Shown here one piece after another: positions 50,645-58,976 of a stretch of 64,000 bases of DNA. The position numbers were made by a program, and so were the translations under genes. Source of the DNA: Leptothrix sp. (in: b-proteobacteria) (GTDB lineage: Bacteria > Pseudomonadota > Gammaproteobacteria > Burkholderiales > Burkholderiaceae_C); the NCBI GenBank assembly GCA_013822685.1, contig PNKV01000012.1:1-64000 (forward strand), written 5' to 3'. The notes beneath the pieces were generated by a model. It did no database searches, was not told where the DNA came from, and saw only the letters and a program-made list of their open reading frames with translations. Each line of letters opens with the position of its first letter. The first letter of the stretch is position 1.

Positions 50645-52075
50645 TCAGCGCTGAAGCGAGGCGGGCACGCGGAACACCCCCATCGCGTGCGACAGCTCAT
50701 CGGCCTGGCGGCTCAGGCTCTCCGCGGCGGCGGCGGTTTGTTCCACCAAGGCGGCATTGTGTTGCGTGGCCTGGTCCATGCGGCCAATGGCCTGGTTGAT
50801 CTGGCCGATGCCATCGTTCTGCTCCGAGCTGGAGACCGCGATCAAGCCCACCAGCTCGGTCACGCGGCGCACCTGGCCCACCAGCTCGCTCATGGTCTGG
50901 CCCGCGCTGTCGACCTGCGTTGAGCCGGCCTCGACCTGGTCCACGCTGCTGCCAATCAATTGCTTGATTTCCTTGGCAGCTTCGGCGCTGCGCTGAGCCA
51001 GCATGCGCACTTCAGAGGCCACCACTGCAAAGCCGCGACCTTGTTCGCCAGCCCGGGCGGCTTCGACCGCCGCGTTCAGCGCCAGGATGTTGGTTTGAAA
51101 GGCAATGCCATCGATCACGCCAATGATGTCGGTGATCTTGCGGCTGGATTGCTGGATGTCGCTCATGGTGGTGACCACGCGGCTCACCGACTCGCCGCCC
51201 GCCAAGGCGAATTGCGATGCGGTGCCCGCCAGCTGATTGGCTTGCTGCGCGTTGGTCGAGGTGGACCTGATGGTGCTGACGATCATCTCGACCGAGGCCG
51301 CGGTTTCTTCAATGTTGGCGGCCGCCTGCTCGGTGCGCTGGCTCAGCGACTGGTTGCCGGCCGATATCTCGTCGGAGGCCACACGCACGGACTCAGCGGC
51401 CTGGCGCACCTGGTTGATCGACTGGGCGATGTGGCGCAGGGCGTCCAGCAGCCGCATGGTGCGCTGGTCGTCAGAGCGGGTATCGGCCACCGACAAATCC
51501 ACGCTGCCATCGTCCGCTTGCAAGCGGTCCACGATGGCCATCAGCTCCTGCGCGGTGGCGAAGTCTTTGCGGGCCTGGGCGGCGAGGAACAGCAGCACCG
51601 CCGTTTCAGCCACGACATACAGCGCATGCTCCACCACTTTGCCAAAACCCGGCTCGGTGAAACAGAGGGGGCCCCAGGCCCAGGTTTGAAGCTGGTTGAA
51701 CAAGACGTGGTGCACCGCGATCGTGGTGGCCCCCACCAGGATGGGCACGGCTTTGCGGTAGGTGACCAGGCAGGCCATGAACGCAAACACGGCAAAGTGC
51801 GCCTCGTTGTGGCCACGCGCCACGTGGATCATCAGGCCAACCATGGCCATGCCCAAGGCGGGCAAAAGCCATTGGCTGAGCGGCCCGCCGCGCGAACTGG
51901 TGCTCACCAGCAAGGCCGCGATCATGATCGGCACACCGGCGGCCAGGGCCAGACCGATGCCGTTGTAAACGCCGCCATAAATCAAGGCGCCGAGCAGCGT
52001 CGCGGCCATGGCCGAGAGCACGACGAAGTCCTGCGCCTGGATCTTCCAAATAGAACGAGGAGTGTCTTGTCTCAT
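50645..52075 (-). CDS. Methyl-accepting chemotaxis protein with multi-TM His-rich sensor
   Basis: A 476-residue chemoreceptor. The N-terminal 165 residues hold five to six membrane segments, in place of the usual two TMs flanking a periplasmic domain, with several intramembrane or loop histidines ([22 protein letters not shown]). The signalling domain (about 215-460) has the conserved hairpin tip [20 protein letters not shown] at 333-352. There is no clear HAMP and no C-terminal CheR-tethering pentapeptide. It is the last gene of the flagellar block, 61 bases after the soluble receptor gene. A membrane-sensed cue such as redox state, or a bound metal or haem, is possible. Confidence 0.88.
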
Positions 52076-52136: not shown

Positions 52137-53519
52137 TCAGAATTTGTAGGCCAGGCGCAGCCCGCCCCAATGGCGGCCTTGCACGATGATGGGCGCCGAG
52201 GCCTCTTTCAGCAGCACGAAGTGGCCGCCGCCCATGTCGCGCCGATAGGTCTGCAACAGGAATGGGCGCTGGTTGCGCGCCGAGGCCAGACCAGTGCGGT
52301 CATTGAAGACGCGGCGCCAGCGCGAATTGGCCGTGTTCCACACCACATCGCCCGCGCGTTGCGTCTGGCAGTACTTCTTGTTGTGGGTGGAGATGTAGCC
52401 GTTGCGGTCGGCCGAGATGCAAAACACGATCTCGGGCAAGGCGGTCAGCGCCGCTTCCTGGATGGCCGGGAAGCTGGCGTCGGTGACCGCGTTGAACTTG
52501 GTTTGATGCTGCTGCGGCTGGCTGCCCTGGATGGGGCGGTAGTGCTCGTCGAACAAATCGGCCAGACTGATCTTGCCGTTGGACACGGCCGCCTCCAATA
52601 CCTGCGCGATCTGGCTGGCCACGCTTTGGGCCAGCTCGATGTAAGGCGTGTCGGCGGTGCGGACACCGCTACCCGCGATCAACTCCATCAGGCGCTCCGA
52701 CACGCCCAGCACGGCTTCGCTGCGCTTCATGGCGGTGTTCAGCGCCGTGTGCGTGCGCTTGATTTGCGCGCCCATCTGCGACACCTGCTGGTTCACACCA
52801 TCCGACAGCCCACGGCTTTGGTCCGCGGCCTCGGTGATGTGCAGCACGCCTGTCTCGACTTGCGTCAAGGCCTGGTGAAACGTGACGCGCTGGGTGCGGC
52901 CATCGCTGGATTTGGCCGCCTCATCCCGCGACAGCAACTCGCGTGACAAGGCCTGGATGCGGTCGTCCAGTTGGCTGACCGTGCTCATGATGGTTTTGGA
53001 GGTGGCTTCCACCTGGGTCGCCAAGTCCTTGACGGCATCGGCCACCACAGAGAACCCACGGCCCGCTTCGCCCGCGCGCTTGGCTTCGACCGAAGCGTTG
53101 AAGGCCACCAGCCGGGTCTGCAAAGCGACCTGGGTGATGTCGCGCGCGGCAGAGGCCACCTGCTTGAGTGTGTCGACCACCTGGGACACCTCGTGCCCCA
53201 CGTGCTCCACGCTTTGGCGGGCTTGCGCCACCGAGGCCAGGCTCTGGTGGCTGGTGTCCTGGATGCGGTGCTGGGCTTGGCCGATGTCTTTCAACTGGCC
53301 GGCCAGCACGGTGAAGCCTTCTTCCTGCTGCAAAGCCACGGCAGAGGAATCCTCCAGCGTGCCGCGCAGTTCGGCGGCTTCGTGGCCCAGGCCATCGGTG
53401 TCTTGCTGGAGCTTCTGCGCCAGCATGTGCGCATCGGATTGAGGTTTCTGCGCCGAATCATTCAATGCGGACGGGGTTGCCGGCGGTGCAACCTGGTCCT
53501 TGCGCTTGAAACCCCACAC
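52137..53519 (-). CDS. Soluble chemoreceptor with C-terminal sensor domain
   Basis: A 460-residue cytoplasmic receptor with no membrane segments. The signalling domain is N-terminal (about 60-260), with the tip [20 protein letters not shown] at 141-160. The sensory part is C-terminal (about 290-460) and resembles a PAS/Cache-like fold ([47 protein letters not shown]). This reversed order is seen in some betaproteobacterial receptors. It starts 4 bases after the fliA stop, so it is probably co-transcribed with the flagellar sigma factor. Confidence 0.88.
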
Positions 53520-53523
53520 GTGA

Positions 53524-54237
53524 TCACCACTCTCTCAATTTGACCCTCAGCCGGGCGATGGACTGGCTGTGCAATTGGCAGACCCGCGACTCGGTCACGC
53601 CCAGCACGGCGGCGATTTCCTTGAGGTTCATGTCTTGCTCGTAATACATGCTCATCACGAACTGCTCACGCTCTGGCAGGTTCTTGATGGCCTCGACCAG
53701 GGCCGAGCGCATGCGGTGGTCCGCCAACAGGGCCAGCGGGTCGTTGCCTTCATCGGTCACGTGGCGGTCAAGGTAGTCGTTGTCGCCATCCTCGCCGCTC
53801 ATGTCTTCCAGGTGGATGAGCTGGGTGCCACGCACCTTGCCCAGCATCTCCTGGTAGTCCACCAGCGACATGTCCATTTCCTTGGCGATTTCGCTTTCCT
53901 GCGGCGCGCGGCCCAGACGCTGCTCCAGGCGGTGCACGGCACCTTCGATGTCGCGCTGCTGTTTGCGGGTGCCGCGGCTCATCCAGTCGGCGCCGCGCAG
54001 CTCATCGAGCATGGCGCCGCGGATGCGCTGGGTGGCGAAGGTTTCGAACTGCACGCCCTGCCCTGCATCAAAGCGGGTCAAGGCGTCGCTCAGGCCGATC
54101 ATGCCAACCTGGATCAGGTCATCGATCTCGACGTTGGCCGGCAACTTGGCAATCATCTGGTGGGCCAGACGCCGCACCAGCGAGCTGTATTGCTTGAGCT
54201 GGGCGTCCATATCGAGGCGGCCTTTGGCGGTGTACAT
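53524..54237 (-). CDS. fliA: Flagellar sigma factor FliA (sigma-28)
   Basis: A 237-residue sigma factor for late flagellar genes. Region 2 includes VEIDDLIQVGMIGLSDALTRFD and FATQRIRGAMLDELRGADW. Region 3 is around residues 90-150, and region 4 has REQFVMSMYYEQDMNLKEIAAVLGVTE and RVCQLHSQSIARLR. The start at 54237 (MYTAKGR) is chosen because GGAG lies 6 bases upstream and relatives begin this way; ATGs at 54249 and 54255 would overlap the preceding gene. Confidence 0.95.
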   Translation of the reverse strand: MYTAKGRLDMDAQLKQYSSLVRRLAHQMIAKLPANVEIDDLIQVGMIGLSDALTRFDAGQGVQFETFATQRIRGAMLDELRGADWMSRGTRKQQRDIEGAVHRLEQRLGRAPQESEIAKEMDMSLVDYQEMLGKVRGTQLIHLEDMSGEDGDNDYLDRHVTDEGNDPLALLADHRMRSALVEAIKNLPEREQFVMSMYYEQDMNLKEIAAVLGVTESRVCQLHSQSIARLRVKLREW

Positions 54238-54254
54238 GCGCTGCTCCATGAACA

Positions 54255-55082
54255 TCAATTGAGTACGGGGGCCATGCGCGAAGGCAAGGCAGACCCTGGT
54301 GAGACCAAATGGTCGAATGCGGCATCACCCAAGGTGAGCGGCAAGGCACACTGCAAAAGTCCGGCGGCCAGTTCCATGAACCGGGGGCTGGGGTCATGAC
54401 TGGCGGGCTCGTGGGGATTGATGCGCAGCCAGTCGCGTTGCGCAGCACCAAGGAAGTTGTCAGCGCACTGGCCCAGGCGCTCGGCCACGGCATCAGCCTG
54501 GTCCGAGTGGGGGGGCGCGCAGACCAGCAGGTCGTAGGCCAACCACGGGCCCCGCTGGCTCATGATCTTGACGGCGGCATAAGCCTGCTTGAGGCCTTCG
54601 GCCACGTCGTTGGTGAACACCAGCGGGCGCAGGTTGCCGTGTCGGGCGCGCTCGCCGAAGATGCGTACCAACTCACTGGCAGAGGCATGCACCAGCACCA
54701 CATCGCATTGCGGTGCCGCATCGGCCAGGGCATGCAGCAAGCTGCCACACGAGCCCCGCGCATCGGCATGCCGCAGCGGCAGGCCACGGGCGGCCAGGTA
54801 GCTCACCTGCTTGGACAAAGGCTCGATGCCTTCACTCAAATCAAATTCGGCCAATTCGCTGGGCGCCCGGGCTTGGTCGCCGGCGTCCACCACCAGGGTG
54901 TGCAGGCCAAAGCTGGCGTAGGCAGCGCACAGGCGCTCCAGCACCACCCCGCCACACACGGCGCCCGCGTTGGCCACCACGGGCACGAAACGCAGCACGC
55001 GCGAAGCGAACATCTGGCGCAAACCCTGGGCCTGGTCGGCCGGCGGGCTGGCAGCGTAGGTTTGAGGCGAAAAACTGGTCAT
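54255..55082 (-). CDS. FlhG/FleN-like protein with degenerate P-loop
   Basis: A 275-residue protein in the flhF-fliA gap where flhG (fleN, ylxH) normally lies. Residues 16-22 read DQAQGLR, the N-terminal FlhF-activating motif DQAxxLR. The MinD-like fold is recognisable (LHTLVVDAG at 60-68, CDVVLVHAS). Where FlhG has the deviant Walker A KGGxGKT, this protein has ANAGAVCGG (37-45), without the catalytic or phosphate-contact lysines. It should therefore not bind or hydrolyse ATP normally, nor dimerise in the usual way, yet could still stimulate FlhF GTPase. The frame is intact and tightly packed between flhF and fliA. Confidence 0.75.
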   Translation of the reverse strand: MTSFSPQTYAASPPADQAQGLRQMFASRVLRFVPVVANAGAVCGGVVLERLCAAYASFGLHTLVVDAGDQARAPSELAEFDLSEGIEPLSKQVSYLAARGLPLRHADARGSCGSLLHALADAAPQCDVVLVHASASELVRIFGERARHGNLRPLVFTNDVAEGLKQAYAAVKIMSQRGPWLAYDLLVCAPPHSDQADAVAERLGQCADNFLGAAQRDWLRINPHEPASHDPSPRFMELAAGLLQCALPLTLGDAAFDHLVSPGSALPSRMAPVLN

Positions 55083-55095
55083 GGGCAGCGACAGG

Positions 55096-56868
55096 TCAAA
55101 GCGCGGACGGAGAGGCCGTGACGTCGGTCATGGCAGGGGTCGAGAACACCAGGCTGACTTCATTCGGGTCCAGGCGGTACGCGGGATTGAGGCTGGCGCG
55201 CAGAGCGCGGTGCACCAAAGCCTGCGATGACAGTCTGTGCCAATCTTCTGGCACGCGTTGGCCGTTGGCGACGCCCAGCACCTTGGATTTGTGACGGATT
55301 AACGCATCCAGCGCCGGACCGAGCTTCACGGCTTCGTCCAGCTTGGACAGGATGACCCCCGCGCAGGCATTGACCTGGTAAGAGGCCATCACGTCTTCAA
55401 TCGCATCGCCTTGCGACGAGGCGTTGATGACCAGCACTTTGCGGATGCTGGGATGGGCCAGCATGTCGAGCAGGTCCTTGGTGCGGCCATCGCGCTGGGC
55501 CATGCCGGCCGTGTCGATGAGCACCATCTTTTTGCCCGACAGCAACTCGAGCAGGTCTTCCAACGCGGCGCGGTCGTGGGCCATGTGCACGGGCACACCC
55601 AGGATGCGGCCATAGGCGCGCAGTTGGTCGTGGGCCCCGACGCGGTAGGCGTCCAGTGTGATCAGGCCCAGGTTCTGCGCGCCATGCTTGGCGGCGAACA
55701 TGGCGGCCAGCTTGGCGGTCGATGTGGTCTTGCCCACGCCGGTCGAGCCGATCAGGGCGAAGATGCCACCCTGGTCTTCGATGGCCAGTTCCTTGTCGGC
55801 GGTGTTCAGGTTGCGTTGCAGCACCTGGGCGGCCCACACGTTTTCGTCTTGAGCGCCAGAGCTGACTTCAGCAGGCATGGCGTCCAGCATCTTGCGGATC
55901 AGCACAGCCGAGAAGCCACCGTCTAACAGCTTTTGGGCCAGGCCGGCCTGGGCGGGCGTGCGGCGCAGTTTTTCGATGAAGGCGATGGTTTCAAACCGCT
56001 CTTTCATCATGGCCCGCATGGCGCGCAGCTCATTGAGCATCGAGGCGTTGGCATCTTGCGAGGCCTTCAGCGCGGCCATGGTGGCGGCGTCGGGGCGCGA
56101 GCTGTCGGCCGAGGCAGCGCTGCGGCCGGTCACCGATTTGAGCGTCAGCTCGGCAGGGTCGCTGGCGGGGCGAACGGCCTTGGCGGGTGCCTGGCGCTGG
56201 GGTTCTTCACGCGATTCGGCGCGCAGCGGCAGCACCTGGGCCACGTGGCCCGTGTCTTGAGGCGCGGTGCGAACGGCTTGCACCGGTCGTGCGGCGGGTT
56301 GAACGGCGGCAGGGGGTGAAGACAACCAAGCCTCCAGGCCGGCCGACAGATCAACGTTGGCGTTGGGCTGCACAGGCTGCTGGGGCTTGACATTGCCCAG
56401 GCGCTGCGAGAGCTGGTCCTCCGGGGTGCCGGCCAGCGCGGGTTCGGTGCGGGCAGCCTTCAGGGCCACCTGGCGGCGCTTGAGCATGCGTTCGCGCACA
56501 TAGTCCTGGAAGGACAAGGTGCTCATGGCCAGTTGCTTGACGTCGTCCTGCACCGTAGAGGCCAGGTTGGACATCGCCGAGCGGGCCTGCGATTGCGCAG
56601 CCACAGGGGCCAATTCGGCCTTCTTCGCAGGTGCGCTGGCTTGCGGTGTGACAGCAGCTTGCGAACGGGCGGCGGGCGCACGCTCTTCACGCTCTGCGGG
56701 CGGGTATGAATCCATGGAGGGCACGCTGTCAGCGGCCATGGCCAGCACCTCGATGCCACCTTCAGGAGCGGGCTTGGTCGACAACACGACAGCGTCGTTG
56801 CCAAACTCGAGCTTGACCTTTTGCATGGCCTCGCGTGAGGTGCGTCCAATAAAGCGTTTGACGTTCAT
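55096..56868 (-). CDS. flhF: Flagellar SRP-type GTPase FlhF
   Basis: A 590-residue GTPase that positions the flagellum and recruits early basal-body parts. The basic N-terminal B domain begins MNVKRFIGRTSREAMQKVK. It is followed by a long Ala/Pro/Gln-rich linker (about 50-265), an N-domain (270-360) and the G domain with Walker A GSTGVGKTT (373-381), DAYRVGAHDQLRAYG and DTAGMAQRD. The linker makes it longer than typical FlhF (about 430-500 residues). The ATG overlaps the flhA stop by four bases. Confidence 0.95.
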   Translation of the reverse strand: MNVKRFIGRTSREAMQKVKLEFGNDAVVLSTKPAPEGGIEVLAMAADSVPSMDSYPPAEREERAPAARSQAAVTPQASAPAKKAELAPVAAQSQARSAMSNLASTVQDDVKQLAMSTLSFQDYVRERMLKRRQVALKAARTEPALAGTPEDQLSQRLGNVKPQQPVQPNANVDLSAGLEAWLSSPPAAVQPAARPVQAVRTAPQDTGHVAQVLPLRAESREEPQRQAPAKAVRPASDPAELTLKSVTGRSAASADSSRPDAATMAALKASQDANASMLNELRAMRAMMKERFETIAFIEKLRRTPAQAGLAQKLLDGGFSAVLIRKMLDAMPAEVSSGAQDENVWAAQVLQRNLNTADKELAIEDQGGIFALIGSTGVGKTTSTAKLAAMFAAKHGAQNLGLITLDAYRVGAHDQLRAYGRILGVPVHMAHDRAALEDLLELLSGKKMVLIDTAGMAQRDGRTKDLLDMLAHPSIRKVLVINASSQGDAIEDVMASYQVNACAGVILSKLDEAVKLGPALDALIRHKSKVLGVANGQRVPEDWHRLSSQALVHRALRASLNPAYRLDPNEVSLVFSTPAMTDVTASPSAL

Positions 56869-58976
56869 GCGTGGCCTCCAATCAGGGTACCGATGCGGAT
56901 CGAATGGGTCTCAGGGATTTCGCTGTGACCCAGCACCTTCAAGCGTGGTGCTGCGCGTTTCAACAGGCGGGCCACCGTCGGCCGGATGGCGTCGGGCACC
57001 AGCAGGCAGGCGGGGTGGCCCAGGTTTTCCTGGCGCTGGGTGGCATCAGCCGCCTGGCGCGTGAGGTGGTCGGCCACGCCCGGGTCCAGCATCGGGCCGC
57101 TGGGCGAGGTCAGGGCCTGGGTCAGCAGGCGTTCCAGATCGGGTTCAATGGCAATCACATCCAACTCCTTCACCGGGCCGTAAATCTGCTGAACGATCGC
57201 CGGGGCCAGGCCGACGCGGATGCGGCGGGCCAGTTCGGCCGGGTCGTTGGCCAGGTGGCCCGCGCCCGAGGTCTGCTCGGCCAGCGTTTCAATGATCGAG
57301 CGCATGTCACGGATGTGAACGCCTTCTTCCAACAGGAGCTGCAGCACTTTCTGCAAGGTAGCAATGCCAACCATCTTGGGAACCACGTCTTCGATCAGTT
57401 TGGGGGCCAACTTCGTCACATGCTCCACCAGCTGCTGGGTCTCTACCCGTCCCAACAACTTGGCCGCATGGATCTGCATCAAGTGTGAAAGATGCGTGGC
57501 CACCACGGTCGAGGGATCAACGACGGTGTACCCGGCCATTTGCGCCGCTTCACGTTGGCGTTCTTCCACCCACACCGCGGGCAATCCGAATGCCGGGTCG
57601 ACGGCCGCCGTGCCCTTCAAAGGATTGGTGACATGGCCGGGGTTGATGGCCATCAACATGTTGGGGAACACCTCGCCCTCGCCCACGATGGCGCCGCGCA
57701 ATGTGATGCGGTAAAAGCTGGGGCGCAGCTCGAGGTTGTCCTTGATGTGCACGGAAGGCGGCAAAAAGCCCACTTCTTGCGCGAACTTGCGGCGAACGCC
57801 CTTGATCCGGGTCAGCAAGTCGCCGCCGCGGTCCTTGTCCACGAGCTGGATCAGGCGGTAGCCTACTTCCAGGCCCAGGGTGTCCACGGGCTGCAGGTCT
57901 TCCCAGGTAGCCTCGCCATTGTTGTTGACGGGGGCATCGGCCGGCTTGTCGACTGGCTTGGGCGCCTTGCGGGCCGCCTCCTGCTTTTCCTGCATGCGCC
58001 AGGCCGCCCAGCCAAAACCACCAGCCATGGGCAAAAACACCAGGCTGGGCATGCCAGGGATCAGGCCCAGCAGGCCGATCACACCGGCCGCCACACCCAT
58101 CACCTTGGGGTTCTGGAACATCTGCGTGATGATCTGCGCGCCGACGTCCTCGCCCTTGCCCACGCGGGACACCACCATGGCCGAGGCCACTGAGATCAGC
58201 AAGGCTGGGATCTGCGCCACCAGCGCGTCACCCACGGCCAGCAGCACGTAGGAGCTGGCGGCATCCGCAGCCGACAGGTCATGCTGCGCCACGCCAATGA
58301 TGAAACCGCCAATGATGTTGATGAACAGGATCAGGATGCCGGCGATCGCATCGCCCCGCACGAACTTCGAGGCACCGTCCATGGCGCCGTGGAATTCAGC
58401 CTCTTCGCCCACCTCGATGCGGCGGCGCTTGGCCTCCTTTTCATCGATAAGGCCGGCGTTCAGGTCGGCATCGATGGCCATCTGCTTGCCGGGCATCGCG
58501 TCCAAAGTGAAGCGCGCACCCACTTCGGCGATCCGTTCCGAACCCTTGGTGACCACCACGAAGTTGATCACCACCAGGATGGCGAACACGATGATCCCGA
58601 CCGCGAAGTTGCCGCCGATCAGGAAGTGGCCGAACGATTCGATCACCGCGCCCGCAGCGCCTGGGCCGTTGTGACCTTCCAGCAGCACCACCCGGGTCGA
58701 GGCCACGTTCAGCGACAGACGCAGCAGCGTTGTCAACAGCAGCACCGAGGGAAAGGCCGCGAAATCCAGCGGACGCAGCATGGTGGCCGACACCATCATC
58801 ACCATCACCGCCATCGCGATGTTGAAGGTAAAGAAGATGTCCAGCGCCAGCGGCGGCAGGGGCAGGATCATCATGACCAGCACCAGCAACACGGCGATGG
58901 GGGCGGCCAGCACCTGGAAGCCCTTGGCGGACTTGCCGCTCATCACGGTTTGAAGTTGTTGCAAGAACGGGTTCAT
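56865..58976 (-). CDS. flhA: Flagellar export apparatus protein FlhA
   Basis: A 703-residue export-gate protein. Eight TM segments lie in the first 330 residues, with FHIPEP-family motifs (RLSLNVASTRVVLLEGHNG, KFVRGDAIAGILILFINI, GDALVAQIPALLISVASA). After a linker comes the large cytoplasmic chaperone- and substrate-binding domain (about 360-703). It uses proton motive force to drive flagellin export with FlhB. Four-base overlaps with flhB and flhF indicate one operon. Confidence 0.96.
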   Translation of the reverse strand: MNPFLQQLQTVMSGKSAKGFQVLAAPIAVLLVLVMMILPLPPLALDIFFTFNIAMAVMVMMVSATMLRPLDFAAFPSVLLLTTLLRLSLNVASTRVVLLEGHNGPGAAGAVIESFGHFLIGGNFAVGIIVFAILVVINFVVVTKGSERIAEVGARFTLDAMPGKQMAIDADLNAGLIDEKEAKRRRIEVGEEAEFHGAMDGASKFVRGDAIAGILILFINIIGGFIIGVAQHDLSAADAASSYVLLAVGDALVAQIPALLISVASAMVVSRVGKGEDVGAQIITQMFQNPKVMGVAAGVIGLLGLIPGMPSLVFLPMAGGFGWAAWRMQEKQEAARKAPKPVDKPADAPVNNNGEATWEDLQPVDTLGLEVGYRLIQLVDKDRGGDLLTRIKGVRRKFAQEVGFLPPSVHIKDNLELRPSFYRITLRGAIVGEGEVFPNMLMAINPGHVTNPLKGTAAVDPAFGLPAVWVEERQREAAQMAGYTVVDPSTVVATHLSHLMQIHAAKLLGRVETQQLVEHVTKLAPKLIEDVVPKMVGIATLQKVLQLLLEEGVHIRDMRSIIETLAEQTSGAGHLANDPAELARRIRVGLAPAIVQQIYGPVKELDVIAIEPDLERLLTQALTSPSGPMLDPGVADHLTRQAADATQRQENLGHPACLLVPDAIRPTVARLLKRAAPRLKVLGHSEIPETHSIRIGTLIGGHA

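Follow-up and report, generated by a model that had tools for sequence, protein, structure and literature searches.

In the sections that concern it, a review (PMC12826062) regards FlhG (FleN, YlxH) as 'the ATPase' in the control of flagellar number. The same sections describe a glutamine in its N-terminal enhancer helix that is co-catalytic for GTP hydrolysis by FlhF, and a block that FlhF places on the binding of FliG to FliM/FliN and that FlhG relieves. The outputs of FlhG differ in what they need: according to PMC11236974, FliM binds FlhG without nucleotide, while FlrA needs the ATP-bound dimer. For Geobacillus FlhG, the relevant portion of PMC12327844 reports that the K36A variant is deficient in ATP binding and D60A in hydrolysis, and that Lys177, an arginine (207) and Phe215 bind the cytoplasmic ring (C-ring) protein FliY independently of nucleotide. 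Here we describe a gene in the flhG position of Leptothrix sp. (contig PNKV01000012.1, positions 1 to 64,000, hereafter the window), whose product, P0001, is an FlhG-derived pseudo-ATPase and probably functions as the half of FlhG that does not depend on nucleotide.

P0001 shares with FlhG/FleN/YlxH the flhF-flhG-fliA position, the DQAxxLR enhancer helix, the fold and the Lys177 and Phe215 positions. Unlike them, it has no Walker A motif, no switch aspartates and no C-terminal membrane motif; for this reason we do not class it as an FlhG ATPase, and neither an ATP-dependent dimer nor membrane cycling nor repression of FlrA/FleQ is expected of it. The gene begins 13 nucleotides past the flhF stop, directly after flhF and ahead of fliA, and runs uninterrupted for 275 codons plus stop. 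A sequence-only reading of this DNA had placed an intact 275-residue frame between the two genes, with correct coordinates and no strand, which is the minus strand; the two motifs it named, DQAQGLR at residues 16-22 and ANAGAVCGG at the P-loop place, are both present in the translation. The gene and its diagnostic positions are as follows.

54255..55082, minus strand: the flhG-position gene, encoding P0001, a P-loop-less FlhG descendant of 275 amino acids (from the frame, alignments and model)
55017..55037, minus strand: enhancer helix DQAQGLR, residues 16-22, the FlhF-activating motif
54948..54974, minus strand: ANAGAVCGG, residues 37-45, where FlhG has its P-loop
54879..54881, minus strand: Gly68, where the switch I aspartate stands (Geobacillus FlhG D60; alignment)
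54687..54689, minus strand: His132, where the switch II aspartate stands (Geobacillus FlhG D139; alignment)
54567..54569, minus strand: Lys172, equivalent to Geobacillus FlhG Lys177, a C-ring-binding position (alignment)
54453..54455, minus strand: Phe210, equivalent to Geobacillus FlhG Phe215, a C-ring-binding position (alignment)

In the alignment, A39, G44 and G45 of P0001 occupy the places of K31, K36 and S37 of Geobacillus FlhG (numbering verified on the 4rz2 chain, where the native number is the chain index minus 8), leaving no Walker A pattern KGGxGK[T/S], and the aspartates of switch I and switch II are replaced by G68 and H132. Signature lysine, Walker lysine, Ser/Thr and both switch aspartates are all missing, which supports the loss of the ATPase P-loop that had been read from the sequence.

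But is such a changed FlhG peculiar to this organism? The change is real, but it spans a large clade. Matches to P0001 occur in 35 of the 36 other genomes of the genus (the match in one of them being split in two), and 85 of 200 family genomes match it directly at an expect value (E) ≤ 0.001, the best matches being referred to as P0001-type. FlhF was found in 146 of the same 200 genomes (E ≤ 1e-30), and the slot after flhF was read in 123 of these (30 + 80 + 13 loci; adjacency to flhF was scripted for the 80 and taken from coordinates for the rest). The slot held a gene in 115 cases, fliA followed flhF directly in seven, and one was cut by a contig end. Five slot genes (loci L186-L190) encode GKGGVGKT; the other 110, comprising 43 P0001-type and 67 further proteins, have no GK[S/T] in their first 110 residues. 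Part of the slot frames were located by way of the glutamine-containing motif; no slot gene lacking the motif was dropped, because the seven genomes without a match have fliA directly after flhF. Among 80 named matches, the best of 268 relatives found, which include Aquabacterium, Methylibium, Leptothrix, Sphaerotilus, Rhizobacter, Roseateles, Paucibacter and Rubrivivax, none has GK[S/T] within 60 residues after the motif, and the closest, from Aquabacterium, are 95-98% identical to P0001, which makes it very likely that the window belongs to Aquabacterium.

The rest of the ATPase apparatus is missing from these proteins as well: 105 of the 110 P-loop-less family members lack all five ATPase residues (K31, K36, S/T37, D60 and D139 in Geobacillus numbering). 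The C-terminal membrane motif occurs in 0/58 P0001-type proteins and 0/67 of the others, judged with a sequence pattern that recovers 48/48 FlhG proteins of the wider class and speaks to predicted membrane binding only. Could P0001 nevertheless bind nucleotide, or some other ligand, at a rebuilt site by non-Walker chemistry? The loop that replaces the P-loop in P0001-type proteins has conserved residues (N38 and G45, then E49 and D66) and equals the P-loop in length in the residue alignment, as might be expected of a cryptic switch; hhalign places a one-residue gap there. However, the site in P0001 offers no lysine, Ser/Thr or switch aspartate, and in divergent members the loop varies in sequence and length, so that we regard ligand switching as very unlikely. 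Separately, the slot protein of L126 has an apparent long insertion just past the first strand, at the P-loop place.

What is retained is as informative as what is lost. The DQAxxLR motif, present in P0001 as DQAQGLR, lies in the first 40 residues of 110/110 P-loop-less members against 0.96 expected by shuffling, with frame starts chosen near the motif, and its glutamine is found in all 110. The ratio of nonsynonymous to synonymous polymorphism (pN/pS), calculated over 30 loci of the genus including this one, is 0.33 for residues 15-275 of P0001; by segment, the heptad has 0.08, the body 0.35, the surroundings of the lost P-loop 0.43 and the N-terminal tail 0.72. In nine single pairs it is 0.02-0.06 in six and 0.09-0.18 in three. 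The strong constraint on the heptad and the invariant glutamine support the earlier claim that the FlhF-activating helix is kept. They also bear on whether P0001 is a decaying, non-functional remnant, held in place by the structure of the operon or by a role in coupling translation to fliA. The variable N-terminal tail and much of the body would fit decay, as would the absence of a slot gene from seven family genomes that retain flhF; the low values in six of nine pairs and in the helix, together with the retention of the glutamine and, in 106/110, of the lysine at the Lys177 place, make a relic hardly credible.

In the 67 more divergent members the motif itself drifts: the aspartate is kept in 35 and the arginine in 30, the glutamine in all 67. 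Among 17 very divergent members the glutamine is one of eight invariant columns, and the motif aspartate and arginine vary. This lends comparative support to the view that the catalytic element of the enhancer helix is its glutamine. Slot proteins at the divergent extreme (within L121-L185) read HQGxGL or NQAxGL at the motif, with aspartate and arginine drifting and glutamine staying.

A second conserved set lies in the body. The Lys177 place holds lysine in the 106 proteins mentioned and arginine in the other 4, which is notable because P-loop-less proteins contain on average only 2.5-2.8 lysines each. Tyr173 is kept in 108/110, and the Phe215 place holds Phe in 43/43 P0001-type proteins and F, Y, W or H in 58/67 of the others. 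P0001 itself has the Lys177 and Phe215 residues of the C-ring surface by alignment, from which binding is predicted only. Because these places are kept too, a second nucleotide-independent function besides FlhF activation is likely. FliM of the same genome has the N-terminal peptide ILSQDEVDALL, which we take to be of the docking type. The sequence-only reading had P0001 acting only as an FlhF activator; the activating helix is borne out, but the 'only' is too narrow, and the changed rule of flagellar number control that it drew from this is a possible consequence. A protein in which FlhF activation is the sole remaining function and the rest of the fold a mere carrier of the helix would suit the helix being under tighter constraint than any other segment compared and its glutamine being invariant even where the motif's aspartate and arginine are not. 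The invariant body positions, however, lie far from the helix and coincide with the known C-ring surface, and we consider this narrower role unlikely.

Descent from FlhG is supported. Profile and PDB-profile matches and a structure model all bear out a MinD/FleN fold for P0001, as the sequence-only reading had proposed, and they rule out a convergent motif in an unrelated protein; a single-sequence PDB search gave weak kinase matches only (E 1.3-1.4). The model places the helix at residues 17-24, with moderate confidence. MinD shares the fold, whereas P0001 has neither the ATPase centre nor the membrane helix; in this genome MinD is encoded separately (L061) and carries GKGGVGKT.

Since the parts kept are those of the nucleotide-independent outputs, and the parts lost those of the ATP dimer, the membrane and FlrA, we infer that P0001 is a nucleotide-free adaptor. 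We consider it fairly probable, from the alignments and the model, that it is FlhG reduced to its nucleotide-independent half, a soluble, monomeric, ATP-free adaptor. P0001 would bind the C-ring proteins FliM/FliN, and its helix would trigger GTP hydrolysis on the FlhF dimer, leading to completion of the C-ring. It would no longer cycle between cytoplasm and membrane, nor form the ATP-bound dimer that represses a master regulator of the FlrA/FleQ type.

Several observations weigh against this interpretation. It is built on sequence and a model. Pfam does not recognise P0001 (CbiA at E 0.23, below cut-off) and NCBIfam gives no match, though the model bears out the fold. The third C-ring residue is poorly kept, the Arg207 place being R or K in only 11/43 P0001-type proteins and 9/67 of the others; it is R202 in P0001, and is also variable in FlhG of other families. 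(The source prints this residue as Arg 277 and its mutant as R207E; we adopted 207, as the chain has Arg there and Phe at 277.) One ATPase residue is retained in 2/110 and two in 3/110 P-loop-less members. Finally, seven genomes (L168, L170, L176, L179, L180, L181, L183) have flhF followed by fliA without flhG, so FlhF can do without it. As for the FlhF proteins themselves, a census of GTPase motifs matched the G3 pattern D[T/S]AG in 22/67 and in 0/5 genomes with canonical FlhG, the pattern probably being too strict, and missed G5 in one of the seven genomes without flhG. By alignment, one or two of the five ATPase residues survive in the slot proteins of L182, L184 and L185, namely a lysine at the Walker place and an aspartate at the switch II place in those of L182 and L184; these three may be intermediates of ATPase loss.

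Outside this order, FlhG of the same class is intact: all 48 proteins carry GKGGVGK[T/S] (50 loci opened, 30 top and 20 lower, minus two without a frame by pattern), and 42/48 have a strict DQAxx[L/I/M]R. The profile with which these were found (151/276 genomes) was built from proteins that have a P-loop or near-P-loop, and strongly degenerate ones could escape it. The 20 DQAxGLR FlhG proteins from other families of the order (L208-L229) came from a search with the FleN-like ATPase P0002 introduced below (39/200 genomes at E ≤ 1e-25), which strongly degenerate ones could likewise escape. Like P0001, they have the enhancer helix and the Lys177 place in 20/20, and have lost the signature lysine in 16 (to arginine in 15) and the switch I aspartate at the D60 place in 19; unlike P0001, they mostly keep the Walker lysine (15/20, lost in five), the switch II aspartate (20/20) and the membrane motif (19/20). 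A quick tree groups these 20 in a single clade with the five canonical family members and one class sequence (Shimodaira–Hasegawa-like approximate likelihood ratio test 99). Because class FlhG is intact and that of other families intermediate, erosion seems to have occurred within this order, the dimerisation and hydrolysis residues going first and the ATP-binding and membrane parts last. In the stepwise order that we propose, the signature lysine and switch I aspartate would have been lost first, then the Walker lysine, the switch II aspartate and the membrane helix.

A mirror image exists. In seven family genomes with FlhF below the cut-off, FlhG retains its P-loop intact, as GKGGVGKT in six and as GKGGAGKT in one, and by pattern has no enhancer helix; the flhF alongside is divergent, at 28-33% identity. 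These genomes indicate that both FlhG modules can be lost independently. At L384-L390, L209 and L214, intact-P-loop FlhG without a DQAxxLR helix lies by a strongly divergent flhF, and genome G334 has two flhF-like matches, one of the divergent kind.

What might have allowed the full loss? In this clade it was probably permitted because the flagellar genes would be driven by FlhDC instead. FlhC is found in this genome (E 1.8e-83) and in 15/15 hand-picked P-loop-less family genomes, this one included, versus 0/5 family genomes whose FlhG is canonical; the class set gave 0/30 strong matches and four weak ones. The link rests on one clade and hand-picked genomes, and 17 of 20 other-family genomes with deviant P-loops gave no FlhC match, both of which count against it. 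From the latter, FlhDC was not the trigger of the first losses, which must have had another cause, and FlhDC as the sole trigger is ruled out. Whether the FlhF/FlhG circuit was rebuilt family-wide as a nucleotide-free adaptor in an FlhDC-run lineage, by stepwise loss of the ATP-dimer-membrane arm until just the FlhF-firing glutamine and the C-ring-carrying surface were kept, we judge to be evenly balanced.

The search for a second, canonical FlhG in the genome, which is 93.6% complete, gave a mixed result: no other DQA-motif protein is among its PF13614 and PF01656 matches, but P0002, encoded elsewhere, is a FleN-like ATPase whose P-loop is intact.

L087:9461-10282, minus strand: gene of the FleN-like ATPase P0002
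L087:10279-11121, minus strand: gene of a GGDEF diguanylate cyclase paired with the P0002 gene

P0002 is related to FlhG/FleN by sequence and reverses the parts of P0001: it has the P-loop GKGGVGKT and no enhancer helix. It also lacks the membrane motif (0/37 P0002-type proteins) and is encoded outside the flagellar operon, where its gene overlaps the GGDEF gene near cheR-cheD-cheB. FlhG might therefore be split, with the ATPase job passed to P0002 acting in trans with P0001. Besides its P-loop, P0002 has FleN as its best solved relative by sequence (6.9e-53), and it is missing from all five family genomes in which FlhG is canonical; it occurs in 125/200 family genomes (E < 1e-80), 123 of the 125 with FlhF (Fisher p 3e-27, uncorrected for kinship). 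Against a split stand the missing helix and membrane motif, 18 FlhF-bearing genomes with neither canonical FlhG nor P0002, one other-family genome with P0002 and no FlhF match, and the pairing of P0002-type genes with a GGDEF gene (19/20 loci) rather than flhF. A quick tree with one long MinD outgroup sets P0002-type proteins apart in a clade that lies outside all DQA-FlhG; a recent duplication with division of labour is not supported by this, and we keep the split as a rather unlikely rival to the nucleotide-free adaptor. As che genes adjoin just 7/20 loci, a general che-cluster protein is ruled out; the GGDEF/P0002-type pair is possibly a cyclic di-GMP-linked flagellar regulator.

We found no report of a P-loop-less FlhG in the open-licence PubMed Central literature, subscription papers on FlhG being outside that scope; on flagellation in Aquabacterium the same literature offered nothing of use. 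A conserved clade of FlhG that cannot be an ATPase by known chemistry raises the question of which FlhG functions need ATP. If our reading is true, the clade is a natural separation-of-function experiment on this point, and ATP would then be dispensable for activating FlhF and loading the C-ring, but required for membrane cycling and master-regulator repression.

The neighbouring genes follow the operon order flhB-flhA-flhF-P0001-fliA, with flhB assigned by eye.

56865..58976, minus strand: flhA
55096..56868, minus strand: flhF, with the GTPase motifs GSTGVGKTT, DTAG, SKLD and GQRVP
53524..54258, minus strand: fliA, with a likely start ATG at 54237

On the 3' side of fliA, positions 50645-52075 and 52137-53519 (minus strand) encode what appear by eye to be two chemoreceptor-type proteins, the one nearer fliA (52137-53519) with an apparent additional C-terminal domain.
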